This document shows positions 10,376 through 23,067 of a stretch of 24,081 nucleotides of DNA, piece after piece. Made by a program: the position numbers and the translations under genes. Origin of the DNA: a virus; the IMG/VR virus record IMGVR_UViG_3300007345_000273, positions 1-24,081 of that record. One strand, given 5' to 3'. The notes under the pieces are model-generated. The model saw only the letters and a program-made list of their open reading frames with translations. It did not search any database and was not told the DNA's origin. Every line of letters begins with the position of its first letter. Position 1 is the first letter of the stretch.

Positions 10376-13300
10376 TTATGCTGTTAGTGCGCCTCTACCA
10401 AGAGTAAGCAGCGCCTTTTCTTCTTCGTCTTCTTTCTCAGCCAGGAGCATGTTTGCCATAACCATGGCGACAACAGCGCTAAATGGTGCTGAGAAGAATT
10501 GAATGGTGGGGTTATCTTTAAGCAAAAGACGCACTAGCTTTGTGGCTTTAGGCATTTCACGTTTAGCCAACTTTGGGTCAAACATGTAAATGGCCATAAG
10601 ATCCGCAGCCAGCTCGTAGGGTGTATGAAAGTAAGTACGCTCACCCTCTCTCATCACAGTATCGTACTTGCTTTGAGTTATCTTGCCCTTCGAGACAAGC
10701 TCCATACCCTTCGAGTAATCATTACGGACAGGAAACTTTGTTCCAAACCCTTCAAGTATGCCTGTTCTTTGCATACGGATTACTTCGTTTATTATGTCCC
10801 TGGCGTCCTGGTTGGTAAACTCGCCTGTAGCAACCTTTTTATCACCAAATAGCTCCAACAGCTCACGCACGGCTGCACGGAACGTGTTTGAGTACGTGGC
10901 ATTGTTCACTGGGTCGTTTATAGACTGCTGTGAGAGGGGTGAGTAAAAGTCTCTTCCGAGGTTTTCTGAGCCCTCTTGCCGAGCTGCTTCATCCACGTAG
11001 CTAGTCTCTATTGCATGCCCAAGTTCATGCAGCGCTGCAAATATATCTGAGCCCTTATACTTTTTAGCTTTCGACTGGATAATGCCAAACCTGGCACCCC
11101 TACCTAATTTATACCCTTCCGGGCTAGGTAAGGATACTCTGGCACCTTTTGTGTCGGTCAGCTGCTTGCGCTTGACTTGCAGTTTCTTTGCGAGATCTGT
11201 CTGGCTAGTTGCCAGGTGGAATACGTGGTTAAACGCCTGGCCAATCTTACTGATGGTGTCGTAATCACGGATACCGTTCTCGTACGGCGAGCCTGGCTTA
11301 CCGACTTCGAAAGCTGCTTTGACTACATTGAGAGCCTCACGGTTTTCTTCTGGTGTAGGCTCTCTTGAACCAGCTAGACTTGTTTTTGGAAGTTCAGTAT
11401 CCCCGGGGCGTCGGTTATTTCCTCCGCCATCGAGGTCAAGGATGCCTTGTTGCCGGTTGATTGATTCTGCTTGCTTTCCGCTAACTGTATCAACGACCGC
11501 ACTGCTGCCGCCATCTTGTCGTCCGGTATCTGTTCCACCAAAGAGCCTTGCTCGCTCTGCATCGGGGAGTGCTTCTTGGATTTGGTCATTTGATATACCT
11601 TCTTTTGTTGCAGCCTCTATAGCTGCGTCCAGATAATCGTTGTCATCACCTTTGCCTTTTGCGACACCCATCTTCTGTGCAAGCTGCTTTTCTGGGTACC
11701 ACATCAAGGCTTGGAAATCTGCAGTATTTATATCATAACCCTGCTCTGATAACAACTCTCTGGCACGTGCAGTGACATCTCGCATATAAGATCTCTCACT
11801 GCCGCTAGTCGGTGTAGCTTGCAGCTCGGGTGCCAGGTTTTTAAAGTGTGTGCCAACAGTTTTGAATAACTGCGGCTTTACCGGGTTAGTACCGTTTTCT
11901 TTTTGGTACCGGCTATAATAACTGTTCCAGGCGCGGTTCAATTCACGACTAAAGTCATCGATCTTACCCTTGCTCTGGCGTACTTTTGACCTGGTGGTAC
12001 CAAGACGCTGCAACGTGGCATCCACAAGCTGCTTTTCGATACCATCTTCCGCGTCCAAACCTTGTTCAACAATGATATTACGGTTCTTCTGCATGTCTGC
12101 AGCTGACTTAGCTGGCTTGAATGGTCTACCGATCAATCGGTTCCACATACGCATCCACCAAATGTCCATGGTCAATGGGTCATAGTTACCCCGGACATTC
12201 TGATAGAAACCCTGGCCAATCTTTGCTCCCAGTATAAAGCTACCTTTGACTGTAGTGTCGGCGTTTTCTGTAACGCTAAGACCAATATCAGTTCCATTAG
12301 TTGCGTTAAAATCATCAACCCATTTGCTAATTTCTTTGACCGTAAAATCAGTATCCAGGAACATTTCGATAGGCATATTACTGCCGGATTGTTGGTAGGC
12401 GTTATAGAACTTAAAGCTAGTTTGCATAGCTTTCTTTCTTTCACCGCCTTTATTCCAATTTGCCGGCATTTTGCCTGTTTTCATGTAAATGCGGAAAACT
12501 TCTAACGCTTGGGCAAAGTTATCTAGAACCGCCTGGCCGTTTGATGTGACTGCCAGAGCGAAGTCGAAAGCTGCTTCATTGCCGGAGATGCGTGGTTCTA
12601 CAAGTTTCATAACAGATTTGGCTGCTTTTAACTTAGCATCATACCATCCAATAGCGCTCCCATCACGTTTAATAGCCCGGAGAGCTTCAGTAGCCATCAT
12701 TCTGGCAATACGATCAATGTTTTCTGGAGTGTATTCTAGAGGTGTGTTAGTGCCAGCTGCTTGCTTCCACCCCTTATGGTAATCACCATATGCGACTTCG
12801 AGCTTCTTCTTTTGTGCAGGTTTAAATGTACCAGCTTGCATCTCTGCAAATTCAGCATCTGTAGGCATCGTAGAAACTGCGGTCATACCTATGTCTGAGC
12901 CAATACCGAATACGTCTGATGCATTTTCTAGCGCCGCGCCGAATAGGTTTGCCTGTCTATCAATGGTAGGCTCGCTATCAGTTGCTTGCTGGCCAATCAC
13001 CCGGTTTACGTACGGCATCACGTACGTTTCGACCAATGCTGGGTCAGATACCTGGCTCTCAGCCTTTGCAGCTATATCCATAGCCCGGTCAGCTGGGTTT
13101 GCTCCCAGGTTGCTACGTAGATCAGCCAGGGTATCAATCAGTACAGCCTTGTCGTCATCAGAGATCGTAGGATCGGCGTCTACAGCCTCGATAAGAGCAG
13201 TATTGGCAGCCTGGTTGTCCTGGATGCCGCGCACATAGCCGGCAGATACATCGCGTGGGGCTGCAGCTGATGCCGCGGCTGCCTGGGATGCGCCTGGCAC

Positions 13301-15328
13301 CGGTGCTTTGTCCCTGGTGACTGATGTAGACTGCTGATCGAGCGCTGTGCTCATCGCAGCGCCTACTGCAGTCATGTTTGGTGCTCTGCCGCCTTCCTGG
13401 ATGGCTTTGATCATTGCCTGGGCGTCTGCTGCGATCACAGGATCTGCAGCTGCCATGGCCTCAAGCAGCTGTACAGCTCTTTGTGGGCTTAATCCGCGCT
13501 CTTTTAGCATTGCGTCCAGTCTCATGAACGGTAAGTCGCCGTTCTTTTCGTATTGTGACTTGTGGATCTCTTTTGCCCTGGCGCGTTGCTCCTGGTTGGC
13601 CTTCTTGATGCCTTCAGCTTCTTGTCTACGTGTTTCGCGTACTGATTCAGCGTCATCAGAGATCTTAATGCCTTCGTTTTTGTTAATGTTGTCCTTGATA
13701 TAGGTCGCAACGCGGCTACGCCGGCCTGTGATGGCATCTATGCCCCGGCCACCTATGACTGCAGCGCCCTGGATTGCAGGGATTACTGGGTTAACTGAGG
13801 CACCGTAAAGAGTACCGAGGATACGTGTAGGGGTCTCGATCAAGCTGCGGTCAGAATAGCCTACATTGCTCGGTATTGGAGACAGCTGGTCAGTGATTTT
13901 AGACACGCCGCCAACATATCCAGAGTTATGCAGTGTTGTCAGCTCGTTCATCTGCCGCATTAGCGACAACATGCGCTGACCTTCCTGGGTGTTACCGGTC
14001 AGGCGGTCGATAGCTTGCATCTCCTGGACACCAACAGTGCTTTTTGCTTTGTTACGCGCCTGGCGCTGCCCAGCGATGGCCATGACTTTGTCCAGGACAA
14101 CAGATAACTCATCGCTGTCTGTGATTCCCAGCTGGGTGCGTAAATCTTTAGCGAGCTGTTTAAGCTCTTCTGATACCTGGATGTGTGCCTTGTCTACAGC
14201 TTCACGTGCGCCTGATGTACTCTGCTTGTTTACGTCTTTAAGGTTTAGGTCGTTTGCCTTTGCGATTGTGTCTAGCCTGGTAGCCAACTCAGTGGCCGCC
14301 TGGGGGTCGTTACCAATCATCTTAGGATTGAGTACGTCACCTTTTGCAATTAGGTCTTCCGCTACTGCTCTGGCATTAATGTCTTGCCCAGCAATAGCTG
14401 TAACAGCGTCTGTGGTAGCTCTTAACCCTGTACCAGCACCAAAACCACCTACCGCGCCGGCTAGAGCCTGGTCAGCAGCCTGTGCAGGGTCGAAACCTGC
14501 TTGGGTACCTGCTGTTTCTGCGCCGTACTGTGTGGTCTCCTGGATGGCTTCTGTGCCTGATTCTTTTACACCAGCTTTAATAGGTCTAGTGACCATGTTA
14601 CCGGTCTGGCCGCCGAAGATGCCCTTAGCACCAAATCGTTCAGCGCCGGCAATGGCTAAAGATGCGGTGGCTGCGATTGATATATCTTCTGGTGTTACCT
14701 GGTCGCGGCCATCGTTCTTTGCGCGTTCTTCTGCAATAGGTGAAATGTATGAAGCGAAGTATGCTGGTGTCGCCAGTAGAGCAGCTGCCATGTCGGGTAA
14801 GCTAGTGACAGCGGCCTCACCCATAAATGCCAAAACATTCTGTGGTGTTGGGTTTGATTTAACCTCATTCCACGGTGTTATACGCTGATAATCAATATCC
14901 TTTTGTACGCCGCGAAGAAACTTGCCGGTGTTCTCGAACTCATCACCAGTAAAACCAAGTGGGTTCTGTAGCTTCTGGATGTCTGGGGTGTTCTCAACAA
15001 ACTTAGTGTCGCCAATGTTACGCCAGTCAACACCCATGAACTGATCAGCATCGCCGGGAACGAGTAGTCGTGGGTCTTTGAAACCTGTAACTGCCTCTGC
15101 AACAGTGTCAGGAAGCTCAGTAATACCGGCAGCAATGCCAGTTGCGCGGTCTGCTATACCTCTGCCGAGACTTTCCATTACGCCGGGCTCAGGCGCTTGT
15201 ACTGGCTTGGGCTGCGTTTGACCACCTTGGGCTTGTTTGATCAAGGCAGCCAGGCGTTTTGCGGCTGCAGTGTCCCCTGCCGCGTCTGCATTACGCAGCG
15301 CAGTCATCAGCTGATTGATATCGGCCAT
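10376..15328 (-). CDS. Giant virion protein with C-terminal zinc-metalloprotease signature
   Basis: A 1650-aa protein in the position of the large internal/ejected virion protein of podoviruses. It starts with a short helical module (LMTALRNADAAGDTAAAKRL) typical of such proteins. Residues about 150-240 contain a hydrophobic region with AAALLATPAYFASYISPIAE followed by the NDGRDQVTPEDISIAA motif. The middle is long, helical and Gln/Ala-rich. Near the C-terminus is HELGH (His1434, Glu1435, His1438), a HExxH zinc-protease motif. Some 135 residues later comes YELAADLMAIYMFDP, whose Glu1572 could be the third zinc ligand. A hydrophobic segment at about 1609-1630 is followed by an acidic tail. No lysozyme or transglycosylase motif was seen. 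AAGGATC precedes the ATG. Confidence 0.8.
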   Translation of the reverse strand: MADINQLMTALRNADAAGDTAAAKRLAALIKQAQGGQTQPKPVQAPEPGVMESLGRGIADRATGIAAGITELPDTVAEAVTGFKDPRLLVPGDADQFMGVDWRNIGDTKFVENTPDIQKLQNPLGFTGDEFENTGKFLRGVQKDIDYQRITPWNEVKSNPTPQNVLAFMGEAAVTSLPDMAAALLATPAYFASYISPIAEERAKNDGRDQVTPEDISIAATASLAIAGAERFGAKGIFGGQTGNMVTRPIKAGVKESGTEAIQETTQYGAETAGTQAGFDPAQAADQALAGAVGGFGAGTGLRATTDAVTAIAGQDINARAVAEDLIAKGDVLNPKMIGNDPQAATELATRLDTIAKANDLNLKDVNKQSTSGAREAVDKAHIQVSEELKQLAKDLRTQLGITDSDELSVVLDKVMAIAGQRQARNKAKSTVGVQEMQAIDRLTGNTQEGQRMLSLMRQMNELTTLHNSGYVGGVSKITDQLSPIPSNVGYSDRSLIETPTRILGTLYGASVNPVIPAIQGAAVIGGRGIDAITGRRSRVATYIKDNINKNEGIKISDDAESVRETRRQEAEGIKKANQEQRARAKEIHKSQYEKNGDLPFMRLDAMLKERGLSPQRAVQLLEAMAAADPVIAADAQAMIKAIQEGGRAPNMTAVGAAMSTALDQQSTSVTRDKAPVPGASQAAAASAAAPRDVSAGYVRGIQDNQAANTALIEAVDADPTISDDDKAVLIDTLADLRSNLGANPADRAMDIAAKAESQVSDPALVETYVMPYVNRVIGQQATDSEPTIDRQANLFGAALENASDVFGIGSDIGMTAVSTMPTDAEFAEMQAGTFKPAQKKKLEVAYGDYHKGWKQAAGTNTPLEYTPENIDRIARMMATEALRAIKRDGSAIGWYDAKLKAAKSVMKLVEPRISGNEAAFDFALAVTSNGQAVLDNFAQALEVFRIYMKTGKMPANWNKGGERKKAMQTSFKFYNAYQQSGSNMPIEMFLDTDFTVKEISKWVDDFNATNGTDIGLSVTENADTTVKGSFILGAKIGQGFYQNVRGNYDPLTMDIWWMRMWNRLIGRPFKPAKSAADMQKNRNIIVEQGLDAEDGIEKQLVDATLQRLGTTRSKVRQSKGKIDDFSRELNRAWNSYYSRYQKENGTNPVKPQLFKTVGTHFKNLAPELQATPTSGSERSYMRDVTARARELLSEQGYDINTADFQALMWYPEKQLAQKMGVAKGKGDDNDYLDAAIEAATKEGISNDQIQEALPDAERARLFGGTDTGRQDGGSSAVVDTVSGKQAESINRQQGILDLDGGGNNRRPGDTELPKTSLAGSREPTPEENREALNVVKAAFEVGKPGSPYENGIRDYDTISKIGQAFNHVFHLATSQTDLAKKLQVKRKQLTDTKGARVSLPSPEGYKLGRGARFGIIQSKAKKYKGSDIFAALHELGHAIETSYVDEAARQEGSENLGRDFYSPLSQQSINDPVNNATYSNTFRAAVRELLELFGDKKVATGEFTNQDARDIINEVIRMQRTGILEGFGTKFPVRNDYSKGMELVSKGKITQSKYDTVMREGERTYFHTPYELAADLMAIYMFDPKLAKREMPKATKLVRLLLKDNPTIQFFSAPFSAVVAMVMANMLLAEKEDEEEKALLTLGRGALTA

Positions 15329-15340
15329 GTCAGATCCTTG

Positions 15341-16264
15341 CTACTGGGAGTATTTGTCTATGATTGCTTGATCGGATGGGCTCATCGTGCCTACAGGCGC
15401 AGCCATGCCATTCATTGCGGCATATGCTTGCTGCTGCTGTTCGATAGCTTTCACAGCTGATATGTAGTGCTTCTTAACGAGCGCCAGGTTTGCTTTGAAT
15501 TGCTCACGGCTCTGTGACTGGCGTAGGTTACCCAGAGATGCATTAAGCTGCGCCAGTTCGCGCTCTGACACCTGACCCAATGCGCCGCCAGTTGGGCTGT
15601 CATCGCGCATCTTCTGCAATCTGTCGAAACCAATAGATGATACAACGGTCTCGATAGCCATCTTAGTATCGTGGGCTGGCGTACCTGCAACAAATGATAA
15701 AGCGTTACCCATAAAACCAGTGACGTTATCAAATGGGTTATAGTTGCTTTCGGCCATGGCCACGTTTGCTTCGATTTGATCGATAGCATCGATGGCTGCT
15801 TGCATATATGGCGATGACTGAGGTGCTTTGGGTTGGTTCTGGGATGCTTCGTTTTGTGCTTTCAGAGCTTTGACCTGGGCGTTATATGCATCGATACCTG
15901 CCGCGTTGTTTATGTCTTGCACATTGCCATACTCTCTCGCCATGTTGGCGTATGACTGCAGACCGCTTTGCTGTGCGCCTTCCATACCTGCGCCACCCAT
16001 CCGTATCAGCATGTCACCCATGCCGATCTTATTGTCAGGCATCTGTGGCATCTGGATCGCGCCAGGTACCATGTTGCGGCGCTGGTTTGTTGCTGCAGCT
16101 TGTGTACTCAATACGCCTGGTGTTGGGTTGTTGAGCATGCCGCTGGTATTGTTATTACCAGGTGCCGGCGGCTGATTAGGATTGGGTATCGTGAGCATAG
16201 GGATGCCGTCTGGGCTATATTGTATCCCAGGTGCCACTTGTGCATTTGGATCACTTATTGCCAT
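15341..16264 (-). CDS. Internal virion / DNA ejection protein (307 aa)
   Basis: A 307-aa protein between another ejection-type gene and the giant virion protein. The N-terminus is Pro/Asn/Gly-rich and probably disordered (to about residue 75). A helical part follows, then the recognisable block GFDRLQKMRDDSPTGGALGQ and VSERELAQLNASLGNLRQSQ at about 215-255, found in injected virion proteins of many podoviruses and siphoviruses. The C-terminal helix is Gln-rich. There are no enzymatic motifs. It begins 3 bases after the preceding stop (GGGAGATAAGAC before the ATG). It is expected to be carried in the capsid and released with DNA, by analogy with T7 gp14/gp15 and P22 ejection proteins. Confidence 0.7.
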   Translation of the reverse strand: MAISDPNAQVAPGIQYSPDGIPMLTIPNPNQPPAPGNNNTSGMLNNPTPGVLSTQAAATNQRRNMVPGAIQMPQMPDNKIGMGDMLIRMGGAGMEGAQQSGLQSYANMAREYGNVQDINNAAGIDAYNAQVKALKAQNEASQNQPKAPQSSPYMQAAIDAIDQIEANVAMAESNYNPFDNVTGFMGNALSFVAGTPAHDTKMAIETVVSSIGFDRLQKMRDDSPTGGALGQVSERELAQLNASLGNLRQSQSREQFKANLALVKKHYISAVKAIEQQQQAYAAMNGMAAPVGTMSPSDQAIIDKYSQ

Positions 16265-16267
16265 GTC

Positions 16268-17332
16268 TTATCTCCCACTCATGTAGCCCATGCCCTGGTA
16301 TGCTGGAGCATTGATGTACTGCTGTTGTGGTGCCATTGAGGCGAAGGCGCTTGGTTGACCACCGAAGCCGCCGCTAAACTGGTTGTACAAGTTTCTACCC
16401 ATACCTGCGCCGGTGACCATGCCGCTGATAGTTGCAGCTGTAGGATCTACAGTGTTCGCCTGGTAGCCAGATGGTGACATTGGTGCGCGGCCTAAGATGC
16501 CGGACATGTACTGTTGATACGCTTGCATATCAAAGTCACGATTAGCTTCGAAGGCAGCCTTGTCGGCATTTAGCTGCTGCTGTGCGTCCTTCTGGAAGCC
16601 GGCACCTGCGTTAATCATGTTAGATAGGCCAGTGTTCGCTGTGTTGACGCCGGTACCAAATGCACCAGCGAGACCCTGGTTAGCAGACATGGCGTTACCG
16701 AAGTCGCGCTGCTGCTGTCCTAGAGACTGGTCGATAAGGTTGCTGCGGATACCTGCGGCTGTGTCAGCTGCGCGGTCACCATAATCACGCATGGCGATAG
16801 CGTCTGCGACACCTGCCCTGGAGCTGTTGACGTTACCTGTGCCTGATGCCACCTTGTTGATACCAGGCAGCGTTTGTTCTGTAAGCATGCGTGTACTGTC
16901 GCGCAGCGCTGCGTCTGTAAGAGCGCCTGTGTTCGCGTCAGCATACGCCAGGGCGTTGTTCATAGCGCCGCCGCCCATCGCCTGGTCATATAGGTTTCCA
17001 TAGTTACCAGCGAAACCTTGCGTCTGATCTGCGAGGTTTTGACCGTAGCCGAACGTAGTGTTACCGAAGTTGAACTGATTGTTCAGCCCGGTGTTCTGCA
17101 TGTCGTTCATGTTTGCATATAGGTCGCCCTGGTATGCGCCTGTGCTTAACATCTTGTTTAGGGCATCCTGGCCGCCCTGGTATCCAGAATTGATGAATGG
17201 GCGCGCATCGGTATAACCCATGTTGTTCATTTGGTTTGCACGGTCTATAGCACCTGCTTGTTTCTTTGCTGCTTTGTTTGCAAAGTAACCAGATACCAGT
17301 GAGCCACCGACAGAGGCTGCTACTGAACCCAT
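16268..17332 (-). CDS. DNA ejection protein, Gly/Ala/Asn-rich (354 aa)
   Basis: A 354-aa protein opening with a Gly/Ala amphipathic segment (GSVAASVGGSLVSGYFANKA) followed by Lys-rich residues. This is the usual start of phage DNA-transfer/ejection proteins of the P22 gp7/gp16 and T7 gp14 kind, in which it interacts with membrane. The body is rich in Gly, Asn, Gln and Tyr with quasi-repeats of GNYGNLYDQAM type. A conserved-looking GTGNVNSSRAGVADAIAMRD lies near 163-182 and helical Gln-rich parts near 260-280. The C-terminus is Gly/Gln/Tyr-rich. GGAG precedes the ATG, which lies one base after the previous stop. Function is inferred from composition and cluster position. Confidence 0.7.
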   Translation of the reverse strand: MGSVAASVGGSLVSGYFANKAAKKQAGAIDRANQMNNMGYTDARPFINSGYQGGQDALNKMLSTGAYQGDLYANMNDMQNTGLNNQFNFGNTTFGYGQNLADQTQGFAGNYGNLYDQAMGGGAMNNALAYADANTGALTDAALRDSTRMLTEQTLPGINKVASGTGNVNSSRAGVADAIAMRDYGDRAADTAAGIRSNLIDQSLGQQQRDFGNAMSANQGLAGAFGTGVNTANTGLSNMINAGAGFQKDAQQQLNADKAAFEANRDFDMQAYQQYMSGILGRAPMSPSGYQANTVDPTAATISGMVTGAGMGRNLYNQFSGGFGGQPSAFASMAPQQQYINAPAYQGMGYMSGR

Positions 17333-17639: not shown

Positions 17640-17902
17640 GCTGTACCGTTGTAAACAACAAGACCCTCTGAGCCGTCACCTAGTGGATCCCATGGGCTGA
17701 CATTAAAACGCACCATGCCTTTAACAGGATTGTCCGGTGGGTTCTCAGTAACCTGGATCGCAGCGTTAGCTAGACTGCCAACAGCTGTCTGTATTCTCCG
17801 CAGCTCTTCCTGGATGTATCTCTGGATACCTTCTTCGAGCTGTGGGTACTGCTGCCGGCTGTAGTCCTGGACAAGTAGATTAGTCTTATCATTGAGTGCC
17901 AT
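17624..17902 (-). CDS. Small fibre-like tail protein (92 aa)
   Basis: A 92-aa protein with a helical N-terminal half (QDYSRQQYPQLEEGIQRYIQ, EELRRIQTAVGSLANAA). It is followed by a compact beta part with NPVKGMVRFNVSPWDPLGDG and SEGLVVYNGTAWVAV. The latter G-x-V-R-F...G-x-G-x-x-V-Y-N-G-T-A-W-V ending is the widespread small fibre-head motif of tail proteins. It may be an oligomeric tail spike, plug or fibre connector. The ATG overlaps the nozzle stop by one base (TAATG), with GGAG upstream, and the stop lies inside the next gene. Position between the nozzle and ejection genes fits a tail-tip part. Confidence 0.7.
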   Translation of the reverse strand: MALNDKTNLLVQDYSRQQYPQLEEGIQRYIQEELRRIQTAVGSLANAAIQVTENPPDNPVKGMVRFNVSPWDPLGDGSEGLVVYNGTAWVAV

Positions 17903-19521
17903 TATCTGGCTCCTGTCGGGGTAATCTCGATGTCAAAGCCTGACAACTCAAAGTCTTTATAGTCAGTGTCAGCCAAGGTCATTCTATATGATAGGTATCT
18001 ACCGGCTGCCCGGCTGTCGATCTTGTGCTCAGTCGGGATGTCATAGATCGCTGGTGTTCCATAGACTGGTGTGGCACGTGGGATGTCTGATGCACCAAAC
18101 TCAAATGTGAGCGTGGTGTCAGCTGTGTTGATCGTATCACACTGTGGATACAGCCTGGTTACAACAACATACTGCCGGGCTGCTAGGCCGCCCTCGTCCA
18201 GGTCAATACCGGTACGCTCCAGGTATGGCGGCTTGGTAGCCTCGATATCGAGCTGGAACGCAATCTGTCCACTGTCTGATAGATCTACGCCATACATCTT
18301 GTCACTGGTGATGCCGTCAGATGATTGATCTTCGCCTACCATGATTACGTGTCTATCAAAGCTGTCTTCCTGGCTGTAGTAGGTACCACCGGTAAGCTGA
18401 TAGGTGGTTGTGCTGTTGGCATATGTAGAAACAGAGTTGACGTTGGCGATAGTGCCGCTGCTAACATTCGGCATGTCCATGAATGACCATGTGTTCGCAC
18501 GGTAATTATACACAGCTGCGCGGTTGCAGCGGTTGGCGTTAGGAAACTCTACGCGGCTGTCGCCTGACATGTAGCAAAAGTAGATCTCATTGAGCACTGG
18601 GTTGTGTTGCGTAAAGCATACATCTGAGTTGTTGTTATTTAGGTTTGAGTAAATGAAGTTCTTAGTACGCTCATCGCATATGCTTTGTTTTGACGTACCA
18701 TCGTGAATATAGATATCGAAAGCTCCGAAGACATAATGTTTGCCCTCAGCTTCCACTACACAGTTTTGGTTAATTACGCCGGCGTCATTAAAGAGTTTAC
18801 GGAAGTTAAATATAAACGTGCCGCCAACAAACTCCATGAGCCAAGTCTGGTCACTTGAGTAAATAATAAAGTTACTACCGAGGCTCATGCCATCAATGAT
18901 CTCGGTTGGGATCTGTACGAGGTCGTTAAAACCTGCGCTCTTTGTGGTGTCAGTGGCATCCCAGCTGCCTGGTACACTATTGGCTGTCGTGATGTCAGAG
19001 AAGCGTACCCTGGTTGGAAAGTTGGTGCTGCCCTCTGTCATGTTTAGGGCAATCAGCTGGTCACCATATGAGCGTAGAGCTTTGCATCTGTGAGTGCTAT
19101 CCCAGTTGGGCAAGTCAGCAAAGTTAGTGCCGGTGCTACTACGGTACACTGGTACACGGTCTACACGGTTGATGTAGGTTACATCAGCCAGGGACGTACC
19201 TGTGTATGGCCGGGGGTCTGATGATCCAGTGATGGAACCAGACACATCTGACACTGTGCCACTGGCGTATTCTTTCATAGCCCATGCATCTGATGCCATG
19301 ACCACAGTATCGAAGCCTGTAGCCGGCACAATGCCATATGCAAAGCGCGGCGTGAAACCGAGACTGTCTTTTATTGTTCTAAAGATTGGCGCTCGGCTCA
19401 CCCTGCCTTCATCGAAACGTACATTAAAACCTGCAGAAAAACCTGTGAGGGGAATGTTGTACGCACTGTTATCAGTGACAACGCCGGTCTTTCCCAGGTT
19501 ACGGATCGGAATGATAGGCAT
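17902..19521 (-). CDS. Tail nozzle protein (P22 gp10 / T7 gp12-like)
   Basis: A 539-aa beta-rich protein matching podovirus tail nozzle/stabilisation proteins. The N-terminus (IPIRNLGKTGVVTD, then FSAGFNVRFDEGRVSRAP) is the typical opening. A series of beta-propeller-like blades follows, with recurring aromatic strands (LRSYGDQLIALNM, DGMSLGSNFIIYSSDQTWLM, VVEAEGKHYVFGAFDIYIHD, NEIYFCYMSG, AAVYNYRANTWSFMDM). The C-terminus carries the immunoglobulin-like YLSYRMTLADTDYKDFELSG strand pair. It would close the tail tube below the adaptor. Unusually, the adaptor gene is about 15 kb away, beyond the packaging and head genes. It starts 6 bases after the 93-aa gene, with GGAG upstream. Confidence 0.8.
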   Translation of the reverse strand: MPIIPIRNLGKTGVVTDNSAYNIPLTGFSAGFNVRFDEGRVSRAPIFRTIKDSLGFTPRFAYGIVPATGFDTVVMASDAWAMKEYASGTVSDVSGSITGSSDPRPYTGTSLADVTYINRVDRVPVYRSSTGTNFADLPNWDSTHRCKALRSYGDQLIALNMTEGSTNFPTRVRFSDITTANSVPGSWDATDTTKSAGFNDLVQIPTEIIDGMSLGSNFIIYSSDQTWLMEFVGGTFIFNFRKLFNDAGVINQNCVVEAEGKHYVFGAFDIYIHDGTSKQSICDERTKNFIYSNLNNNNSDVCFTQHNPVLNEIYFCYMSGDSRVEFPNANRCNRAAVYNYRANTWSFMDMPNVSSGTIANVNSVSTYANSTTTYQLTGGTYYSQEDSFDRHVIMVGEDQSSDGITSDKMYGVDLSDSGQIAFQLDIEATKPPYLERTGIDLDEGGLAARQYVVVTRLYPQCDTINTADTTLTFEFGASDIPRATPVYGTPAIYDIPTEHKIDSRAAGRYLSYRMTLADTDYKDFELSGFDIEITPTGAR

Positions 19522-21351: not shown

Positions 21352-23067
21352 TTACTCACAGCTCTTCTGTCCTGTGCCAGGGTCAATGAAGCATGCCTCA
21401 GCCTTCGCAGGTTCTTCCTTGTCTGGCTTTACCTCATTGAGGATACCAAACCTCTTGCCAGCTGCTCTGAACGTAGTGATGCCCTTACAGCCACCCTTCC
21501 AGGCTTTGTAATACAGCTGCTTGAACTCATCGTAGGTCACATCATCACCCACGTTACATGTCTTACTCACTGCGCTGTCCACGTACTTAGATGCCAGGCA
21601 TAAGACATCCACGTGTTCATCTGCAGTGATCTCATTGGCTGTGCGTCCACTGACGCCCTGGTTGTATGCGTAGTCTTCCACACGCTCGATCTGGTGGCCA
21701 TCGAACTGCTGAATGGTACGGTCATAGTACAGGCTGTATGGTGGCTCGATGCCTGAGCTTACGTTATCTGCAGTCAGGCTGATGGTGCCTGTGGGTGCGA
21801 TGCTAGTCAGGTGTGAGTTACGCAATCCATGCTCTTCGATCAGCTCACGTACCTTCTTTGGTAGTGTCTTGAAGAACCTGCCCTGGGTGTACTTCTCTTT
21901 GTCGTACAGTGGGAATGCACCTTTCTCCTGGGCAAGCAGCGCTGACGCTGTGTAACACTCATCACGCAGCATCTTGAGTGCCTTCTCAGCCCACTCCATG
22001 AACGTAGGTGTGGCGTATGGGTAGCCTAACAGCTCACCAGCATTAGCCATGCCAGTGACACCTAATCCCATGCGGCGCTTGTTCTCTGCTTCACTCTTCT
22101 GCTCAGGCAGTGGGTAGATCGTGCGGTCAACCACGTTGTCCATGGCTCTCACTACTGTGTGGATGTCAGACTTGTACTGATCCCAGTCGAATGACTTATC
22201 GTCTACGTACTTGGTAAGGTTAAAGCTGCCCAGCAAGCATGCACCATACGGTGGCAGAGGCTGCTCAGCGCATGGGTTAGTGGCTTCCAGGGTCTCACAG
22301 TACCAGAGGTTATTCATCTCGTTCATACGATCCAGGAATACTACGCCTGGCTCAGCCCAATCATATGTGCTTCTCATGATCATGTCCCACAAGGCGACCG
22401 GGTCTACCTCTTTGTACACCTTGCCTTCGAAGCGCAGTGGGAAAGGCTTGCCAGCATCCAGGTAATTCATGAACTCATCCGTGATACCCACAGAGATATT
22501 GAAACCTGTCAGTGTCGTACTGTCATGTTTCGCAGTAATGAACTGCTCGATGTCGGGGTGATCAACACGCAGCACACCCATCTGAGCGCCTCTACGGTGG
22601 CCGCTGCTGGCGATGGTCTGACACACGGCATCAAAGATACCCATGAAACTAACAGCGCCTGACGCCTTACTATCGAGGCTCTTGATCAGCTCACCGCGTG
22701 GCCGCAGCCGGCTGAAGTCATAACCAATGCCACCACCGCGACGCATGGTCTCAGCTGCCTCTGCGGCTCGCTTCATGATTACGTCCATGCTGTCTTCGAT
22801 GATGCCGCTGACAAAGCAGTTGTATGCTGTAGTCTGCCGGGCAGCGCCCATTGCATTCTGTACACGGCCAGCTGGCAGGAACCGCATGTGACGCATGGCG
22901 TCCTTGAAGTCCTCGAAGTGTTCCGGTGTGTCTTTCAAAGCATCTGCAATACGTACTACCTTGCTGTAGAAGTCCTCACCGACCTGGCGATACTTTTGCC
23001 TATCGATCTCATCGGACAACGGCAGTGTCATGCCGTAATGCTGGTTGTGCTTCATCATATTATTCAT
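21352..23067 (-). CDS. nrdJ: Class II (B12-dependent) ribonucleoside reductase
   Basis: A 571-aa adenosylcobalamin-type ribonucleotide reductase that makes deoxynucleotides for phage DNA synthesis. Visible elements are NCF with Cys84 (redox Cys); GGGIGYDFSRLRPRG (111-125); GHRRGAQMGVL (156-166); NPCAEQ at 264-269, with radical Cys266 flanked by Asn264 and Glu268; ACLLGSFNL with Cys277 (second redox Cys); SIAPTGTIS phosphate loop (422-430); TTFRAAGKR (531-539); and Cys559 and Cys570 near the C-terminal end as candidate re-reducing thiols. No small subunit (NrdB) lies next to it and the length is short for class I, which favours class II. It starts with an ATGA overlap on the MazG gene and has GGGAG 8 bases upstream. 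No ATP-cone domain is visible. Confidence 0.92.
   Translation of the reverse strand: MNNMMKHNQHYGMTLPLSDEIDRQKYRQVGEDFYSKVVRIADALKDTPEHFEDFKDAMRHMRFLPAGRVQNAMGAARQTTAYNCFVSGIIEDSMDVIMKRAAEAAETMRRGGGIGYDFSRLRPRGELIKSLDSKASGAVSFMGIFDAVCQTIASSGHRRGAQMGVLRVDHPDIEQFITAKHDSTTLTGFNISVGITDEFMNYLDAGKPFPLRFEGKVYKEVDPVALWDMIMRSTYDWAEPGVVFLDRMNEMNNLWYCETLEATNPCAEQPLPPYGACLLGSFNLTKYVDDKSFDWDQYKSDIHTVVRAMDNVVDRTIYPLPEQKSEAENKRRMGLGVTGMANAGELLGYPYATPTFMEWAEKALKMLRDECYTASALLAQEKGAFPLYDKEKYTQGRFFKTLPKKVRELIEEHGLRNSHLTSIAPTGTISLTADNVSSGIEPPYSLYYDRTIQQFDGHQIERVEDYAYNQGVSGRTANEITADEHVDVLCLASKYVDSAVSKTCNVGDDVTYDEFKQLYYKAWKGGCKGITTFRAAGKRFGILNEVKPDKEEPAKAEACFIDPGTGQKSCE

Follow-up and report, generated by a model that had tools for sequence, protein, structure and literature searches.

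Zincin-like metallopeptidase domains are known in the polyvalent proteins of phages such as N4 and P1, and are reported to be the commonest domain of such proteins (PMC5512222). Podovirus virions are known by proteomics to contain a giant DarB-like protein in the case of JC1 (PMC9144972) and, in the case of SU10, the ejection protein gp24 (PMC9509320). SU10 gp20-gp24 are absent from genome-released particles and are therefore ejected, gp20 being a transglycosylase (PMC9509320). The last and largest of the SU10 ejection proteins, gp24 (1473 aa), shares its slot with the 1650-aa protein described here, and T7 gp16 is likewise the largest of three ejection proteins. T7 gp16 has a transglycosylase at its own N-terminus, whereas in SU10 this enzyme is a separate protein and at the present locus it is either absent or, in some relatives, located in the preceding protein. 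A further counterpart occurs in the LUZ24-like phages, where an annotated phage particle protein (tf gp51; LUZ24 gp50) occupies the same slot, after the nozzle and other ejection-type genes.

The sequence analysed (termed here the window) is a 24,081-nucleotide stretch from a virus record in IMG/VR (IMGVR_UViG_3300007345_000273); the homologues with which it is compared are from uncultivated viruses. Its 1650-aa open reading frame starts with an ATG preceded by AAGGA, and a scan of IMG/VR with the encoded protein returned 78 related loci; the gene is real. A second record of 40,459 bases (termed here G001) encodes an identical (100%) protein; it overlaps the window over 22,596 bases, of which 22,546 are the same in both. 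Members of the family are about 1650-2030 aa long and contain one zincin each. Counts of active-site conservation given below refer to 74 aligned homologues, and the structural model and the alignment underlying it to 52 sequences. The features discussed are listed in Table 1.

Table 1. Location of the 1650-aa protein, its parts and its neighbours within the window
Feature	Window positions	Strand	Evidence
1650-aa largest ejection-type protein	10376..15328	minus	ORF and ribosome-binding site; 78 related IMG/VR loci
N-terminal region, about residues 39-337	14318..15214	minus	common to phage tf gp51; profile match 7e-20
Central all-helical region, residues 690-1272	11513..13261	minus	conservation; model pLDDT 85
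Variable linker, about residues 1257-1330, joining central region and protease	11339..11560	minus	conservation, pLDDT
Zincin-like metallopeptidase domain, about residues 1331-1615	10484..11338	minus	invariant catalytic residues, AlphaFold2 model, Foldseek
HExxH, residues 1434-1438 (HELGH)	11015..11029	minus	74/74 invariant; helix 1422-1442, pLDDT about 96
Tyr1566 ... Glu1572-x3-Asp1576 ... Tyr1581, glutamate helix with third-ligand candidate	10586..10633	minus	conservation; helix 1570-1583
Hydrophobic stretch, residues 1610-1629	10439..10498	minus	Kyte-Doolittle 1.83
C-terminal tail GALTA, residues 1646-1650	10379..10393	minus	conserved G-[AIVLM]-L-[STAN] motif
307-aa second ejection-type protein	15341..16264	minus	SLT domain absent here; present in orthologues of five relatives
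354-aa ejection-type protein	16268..17332	minus	phrog_4287 DNA ejection protein, E 2.5e-10
Nozzle-like virion protein, tf_57 orthologue	17902..19521	minus	phrog_3287 1.4e-95; tf_57 6e-66

The gene lies within a virion module whose portal, capsid and adaptor match SU10 Pfam models; among annotated phages, the nearest portals are those of LUZ24-type Pseudomonas phages such as tf (about 30% identity). The order of genes within this module--nozzle, 92 aa, 101 aa, 354 aa, 307 aa and 1650 aa--parallels tf gp57-gp51, the tf counterparts being, in order, gp57 (the nozzle), gp56, gp55, gp54, gp52 and gp51. Both the nozzle and the 92-aa gene have sequence homology to their tf counterparts; with tf gp51, a profile of the full-length family gives a match confined to the N-terminal 300 residues (E 7e-20). 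The tf protein differs in having 1021 residues and in lacking the HExxH motif and both the middle and the protease regions. SU10 gp24 has no detectable homology to the 1650-aa protein, and no HExxH motif was found in SU10 gp20-gp24. Gene order and N-terminal homology strongly suggest that the 1650-aa protein is the third and largest ejection (i.e., internal virion) protein of an SU10/LUZ24-like podovirus. An earlier description of this locus, made from the DNA letters (termed here the sequence-only reading), had called it a virion protein; this agrees with the gene's position and with the homology of its N-terminus to an annotated phage-particle protein, though for the window phage itself the term should be read as 'putative virion protein'.

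The same setting bears upon the suggestion, also made in the sequence-only reading, that the protease acts on phage proteins during maturation. Because the gene sits among the virion genes, immediately ahead of those for terminase and head proteins, it might be supposed to encode a prohead maturation protease for capsid and scaffold; however, the capsid protein and the SU10 capsid model align end to end (3-291 of 292), without an additional N-terminal segment, the scaffold has a gene of its own, and both tf and SU10 build heads without an HExxH protein in that slot. A role of this kind is therefore highly improbable.

Within the C-terminal part of the protein, His1434, Glu1435, His1438, Tyr1566 and Glu1572 are invariant in all 74 homologues, and Asp1576 and Tyr1581 are each kept in 73 of them, even though the median pairwise identity of the protease domain is 27%. 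The sequence HELGH is located at residues 1434-1438, where the sequence-only reading had placed a zinc-protease signature; from composition, 0.004 HExxH motifs would be expected in a protein of 1650 residues. Every homologue that reaches the active-site region has this motif (one locus without it, L077, is ended by the contig end), so that a family in which the catalytic residues are sometimes missing, which would speak against a protease, is not what is seen among the 74. The segment YELAADLMAIY, proposed earlier as the source of a third ligand, corresponds to residues 1571-1581 and puts Glu1572 138 residues past His1434. More generally, each of the 74 homologues contains, after its HExxH, exactly one match to Y-x5-E-x3-[DE]-x4-[YF]-x3-P, at a distance of 91-171 residues. 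Only nine columns are invariant in the 52-sequence alignment, four of them being the active-site residues H, E, H and E.

Gluzincins classically have an ExxxD motif on the glutamate helix, and a tyrosine shortly ahead of the third ligand recalls lethal-factor-type enzymes. Glu1572, which begins such an ExxxD motif and is present in 74 of 74 homologues, is likely to be the third ligand. We infer from this pattern that zinc is bound by His1434, His1438 and Glu1572, that Glu1435 is the general base and that the metallopeptidase domain is active; Tyr1566 is likely to be a transition-state residue. Conservation of a metal site need not imply that proteolysis is needed: ArdC performs its role in conjugation without its metalloprotease glutamate (E229A; PMC7213743), and the MPTase-containing region of N4 is needed for encapsidation (PMC5512222). 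By analogy, the present site might be structural or vestigial, with the domain serving only in virion assembly or DNA handling. This is improbable, however, inasmuch as invariance in 74 of 74 homologues extends beyond the ligands to the general base Glu1435 and to Tyr1566; that precisely the gluzincin residues are retained at so low a median identity counts for a metallopeptidase.

The predicted structure points in the same direction. AlphaFold2, run on residues 1300-1650 with 52 sequences, gave a mean pLDDT of 78.9, with 183 residues at 90 or above and a core above 90. The modelled order is three strands, the HExxH helix (1422-1442), an insert and the Glu1572 helix (1570-1583); HExxH and Glu1572 are thus predicted to fall within the two expected helices, and a zincin layout can be assigned to the model with confidence. 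Together with the invariant residues, this predicted fold supports the gluzincin-type active site proposed in the sequence-only reading. The outcome of searching for related peptidase folds is less clear-cut: the top PDB folds found by Foldseek are zincins, but none reaches E <= 0.001 (the best E is 0.17). Lethal factor accounts for the top two matches and several others among the first ten, and much of the list consists of ACE, oligoendopeptidase and other gluzincins, likewise at E-values that are not significant. Lethal-factor-type (M34) and other gluzincins resemble the present domain in being its top-ranked, though not significant, PDB folds and in having a tyrosine shortly before the third ligand. 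In a viral structure library Foldseek returned one strong unnamed match (1.7e-7) and, weakly, LPD-bearing phage proteins.

Sequence searches yielded less. Pfam, PHROGs and NCBIfam assigned no significant named family to the 1650-aa protein or to the 52 domain homologues, their scattered matches being mostly weak and none occurring in more than three members; Pfam ATLF (M34) fell below the cut-off, being matched by 2 of 52 members with an E of 0.06 at best. PDB sequences were not matched by single-sequence or profile searches, nor were any of 50,697 phage records matched by the protease domain (tblastn, up to E 1). Searches of viral contigs with single divergent members found close relatives only, and a scan of genome contigs with the full protein found one locus, with the middle region alone in common. 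When the profile was compared with the MPTase of the N4 virion RNA polymerase (12 schitoviruses), only 20 columns around HExxH aligned, at a probability of 25%. This is a protein of a kind already known, whose sequence family is outside Pfam, PHROGs and NCBIfam.

That kind is recognizable from the overall architecture, in which several unrelated regions--N-terminal, central and protease--are joined in one giant virion-module protein. Residues 136-280 are found by tblastn also in giant proteins of Vibrio and Shewanella phages. The central region is the best-conserved part of the protein, and its model resembles no solved structure; about residues 807-1282 of the protein recur in polyvalent proteins of 2500-3100 aa. 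In close relatives, the part that aligns with the central region contains FtsK-gamma (E 3e-18) or methyltransferase inserts, and more distant proteins that share the central or N-terminal region have LPD38, LPD22, ART-PolyVal and methyltransferase domains, a pattern typical of polyvalent proteins (PMC5512222); these distant relatives have an HExxH of their own elsewhere. In the 1650-aa protein itself, no catalogued polyvalent domain (LPD, ART-PolyVal or MPTase-PolyVal) passes in Pfam. Because such domains occur only in its wider relatives, the protein is described here as 'of polyvalent kind' but outside the named domain families. Two observations concern individual relatives. Limnohabitans phage DC33 (PQ492659.1, locus L080) encodes a 3125-aa protein with LPD22 and ART-PolyVal in a 39-kb genome, because of which its filing under Inoviridae looks wrong. 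A contig of a Porticoccaceae MAG (NYWV01000005.1, locus L083) codes for a protein related to the central region (892-1294); the contig may carry a prophage, or may come from a phage and have been binned together with the bacterial genome.

Compared with the MPTases of the N4 virion RNA polymerase and P1 DdrB, the modelled domain has the same HExxH helix and later glutamate helix, in the same strand-strand-strand-HExxH helix-Glu helix order, and is likewise fused into a giant virion-module protein with LPD, ART-PolyVal and methyltransferase relatives (PMC5512222). It differs in that a sequence link is not detectable beyond the HExxH helix, in the long, variable insertion that separates HExxH from Glu, in the invariant tyrosine six residues before that Glu, and in the absence of an RNA polymerase or ParB domain from the rest of the protein. 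Judged by sequence comparison, the proteins appear to form a new family of zincin-bearing polyvalent/ejection protein.

The sequence-only reading had proposed that peptidolysis of envelope or host targets may replace the transglycosylase of T7-type phages. Read in this way, the protease would open the envelope during ejection by cutting peptidoglycan or envelope peptides, which would fit with the finding that no SLT transglycosylase domain was detected in the near-identical G001 genome or in 7 of the 10 other relatives with near-full-length genomes. In the remaining 3 of these 11, however, the counterpart of the 307-aa neighbour is extended at its N-terminus and bears SLT in that extra part; a profile made from these SLT-bearing counterparts adds two further loci (L011 and L045). 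All five (L011, L016, L018, L041 and L045) combine SLT in the preceding gene with a protease whose catalytic residues are all intact; since both enzymes occur in the same ejection set, the protease is no substitute for the transglycosylase. Moreover, Phage_lysozyme is encoded as a separate gene in 8 of the 11 genomes, including G001, and peptidases that act on peptidoglycan are not usually HExxH zincins. An envelope-opening role is, on balance, very unlikely.

The reading preferred here, which is held to be probable, is that of an ejected SU10/LUZ24-like protein whose C-terminal gluzincin-type domain acts as a protease after ejection. The 1650-aa protein would be packaged full-length or nearly so and would enter the bacterium together with the viral DNA; the protease might then cut its own polypeptide at loose linkers, thereby freeing functional units, or its target might instead be a host protein. 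Action at this stage is favoured because a frozen active site is carried on a loosely tethered C-terminal domain that would be delivered with the DNA. Conservation and occupancy are lowest in the linker (1257-1330), and pLDDT is below 50 over residues 1300-1320.

The sequence-only reading had ended the protein with a membrane segment, and a hydrophobic stretch is indeed present: the Kyte-Doolittle value peaks at residues 1611-1629 (1.83), and at the same place it is at least 1.6 in 62 of 74 homologues. As a membrane anchor, however, it is borderline, being only about 15-19 residues long; an acidic tail comes after it, and the model shows it as a helix of low confidence. A G-[AIVLM]-L-[STAN] motif occurs within the last 25 residues of 54 of 55 distinct relatives and in the linker of 13 of the 55; in orthologues of the 307-aa neighbour it occurs about five times as often as in shuffles (55 versus 11). 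It may be a packaging or docking tag, or a protease site, common to ejection proteins; the tag is no less likely than the protease site, inasmuch as cleavage at a C-terminal G-x-L-S/T would free only a residue or two.

Such motifs, together with the variable linker ahead of the protease domain, would also suit a protease that acts earlier, in the maturing head, by cutting its own or neighbouring ejection proteins before or during packaging. This has been proposed for P1 DdrB, which is processed before packaging and has a C-terminal MPTase; on the other hand, the N4 virion RNA polymerase is packaged uncut with its MPTase (PMC5512222). In the present family, moreover, conservation of the protease is accompanied by that of the hydrophobic C-terminal end and the tail, so that the domain is evidently not simply discarded. 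Cleavage within the head is accordingly considered rather unlikely. A more specific form of post-ejection action can be put forward only tentatively: the podovirus lineage may inject a dedicated gluzincin protease that, anchored by its hydrophobic C-terminal end, cuts a specific host protein early, alongside an optional, partner-borne transglycosylase.

Metallopeptidases are common in polyvalent proteins (PMC5512222), and a compact family with a single zincin offers a test case. The residues that are invariant in 74 of 74 members at 27% identity are defined targets for testing, and the homologue in cultured LUZ24-like phages, because it is without the protease, provides a clean natural comparison.

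Outside the virion module, a T7-type RNA polymerase is encoded in all 11 of the near-full-length records examined, and G001 encodes in addition a T7-type helicase-primase, a family A DNA polymerase and a tyrosine integrase; the phage is possibly able to integrate. The sequence-only reading's comparison with T7-type phages fits these replication genes, but not the virion genes, which are SU10/LUZ24-like. By gene content, G001 is thus a chimera of two podovirus types, combining T7-type genes with an SU10/LUZ24-type virion module. A gene for the large chain of ribonucleotide reductase (PF02867, 1.8e-111) is located at 21352-23067, upstream of the virion genes.
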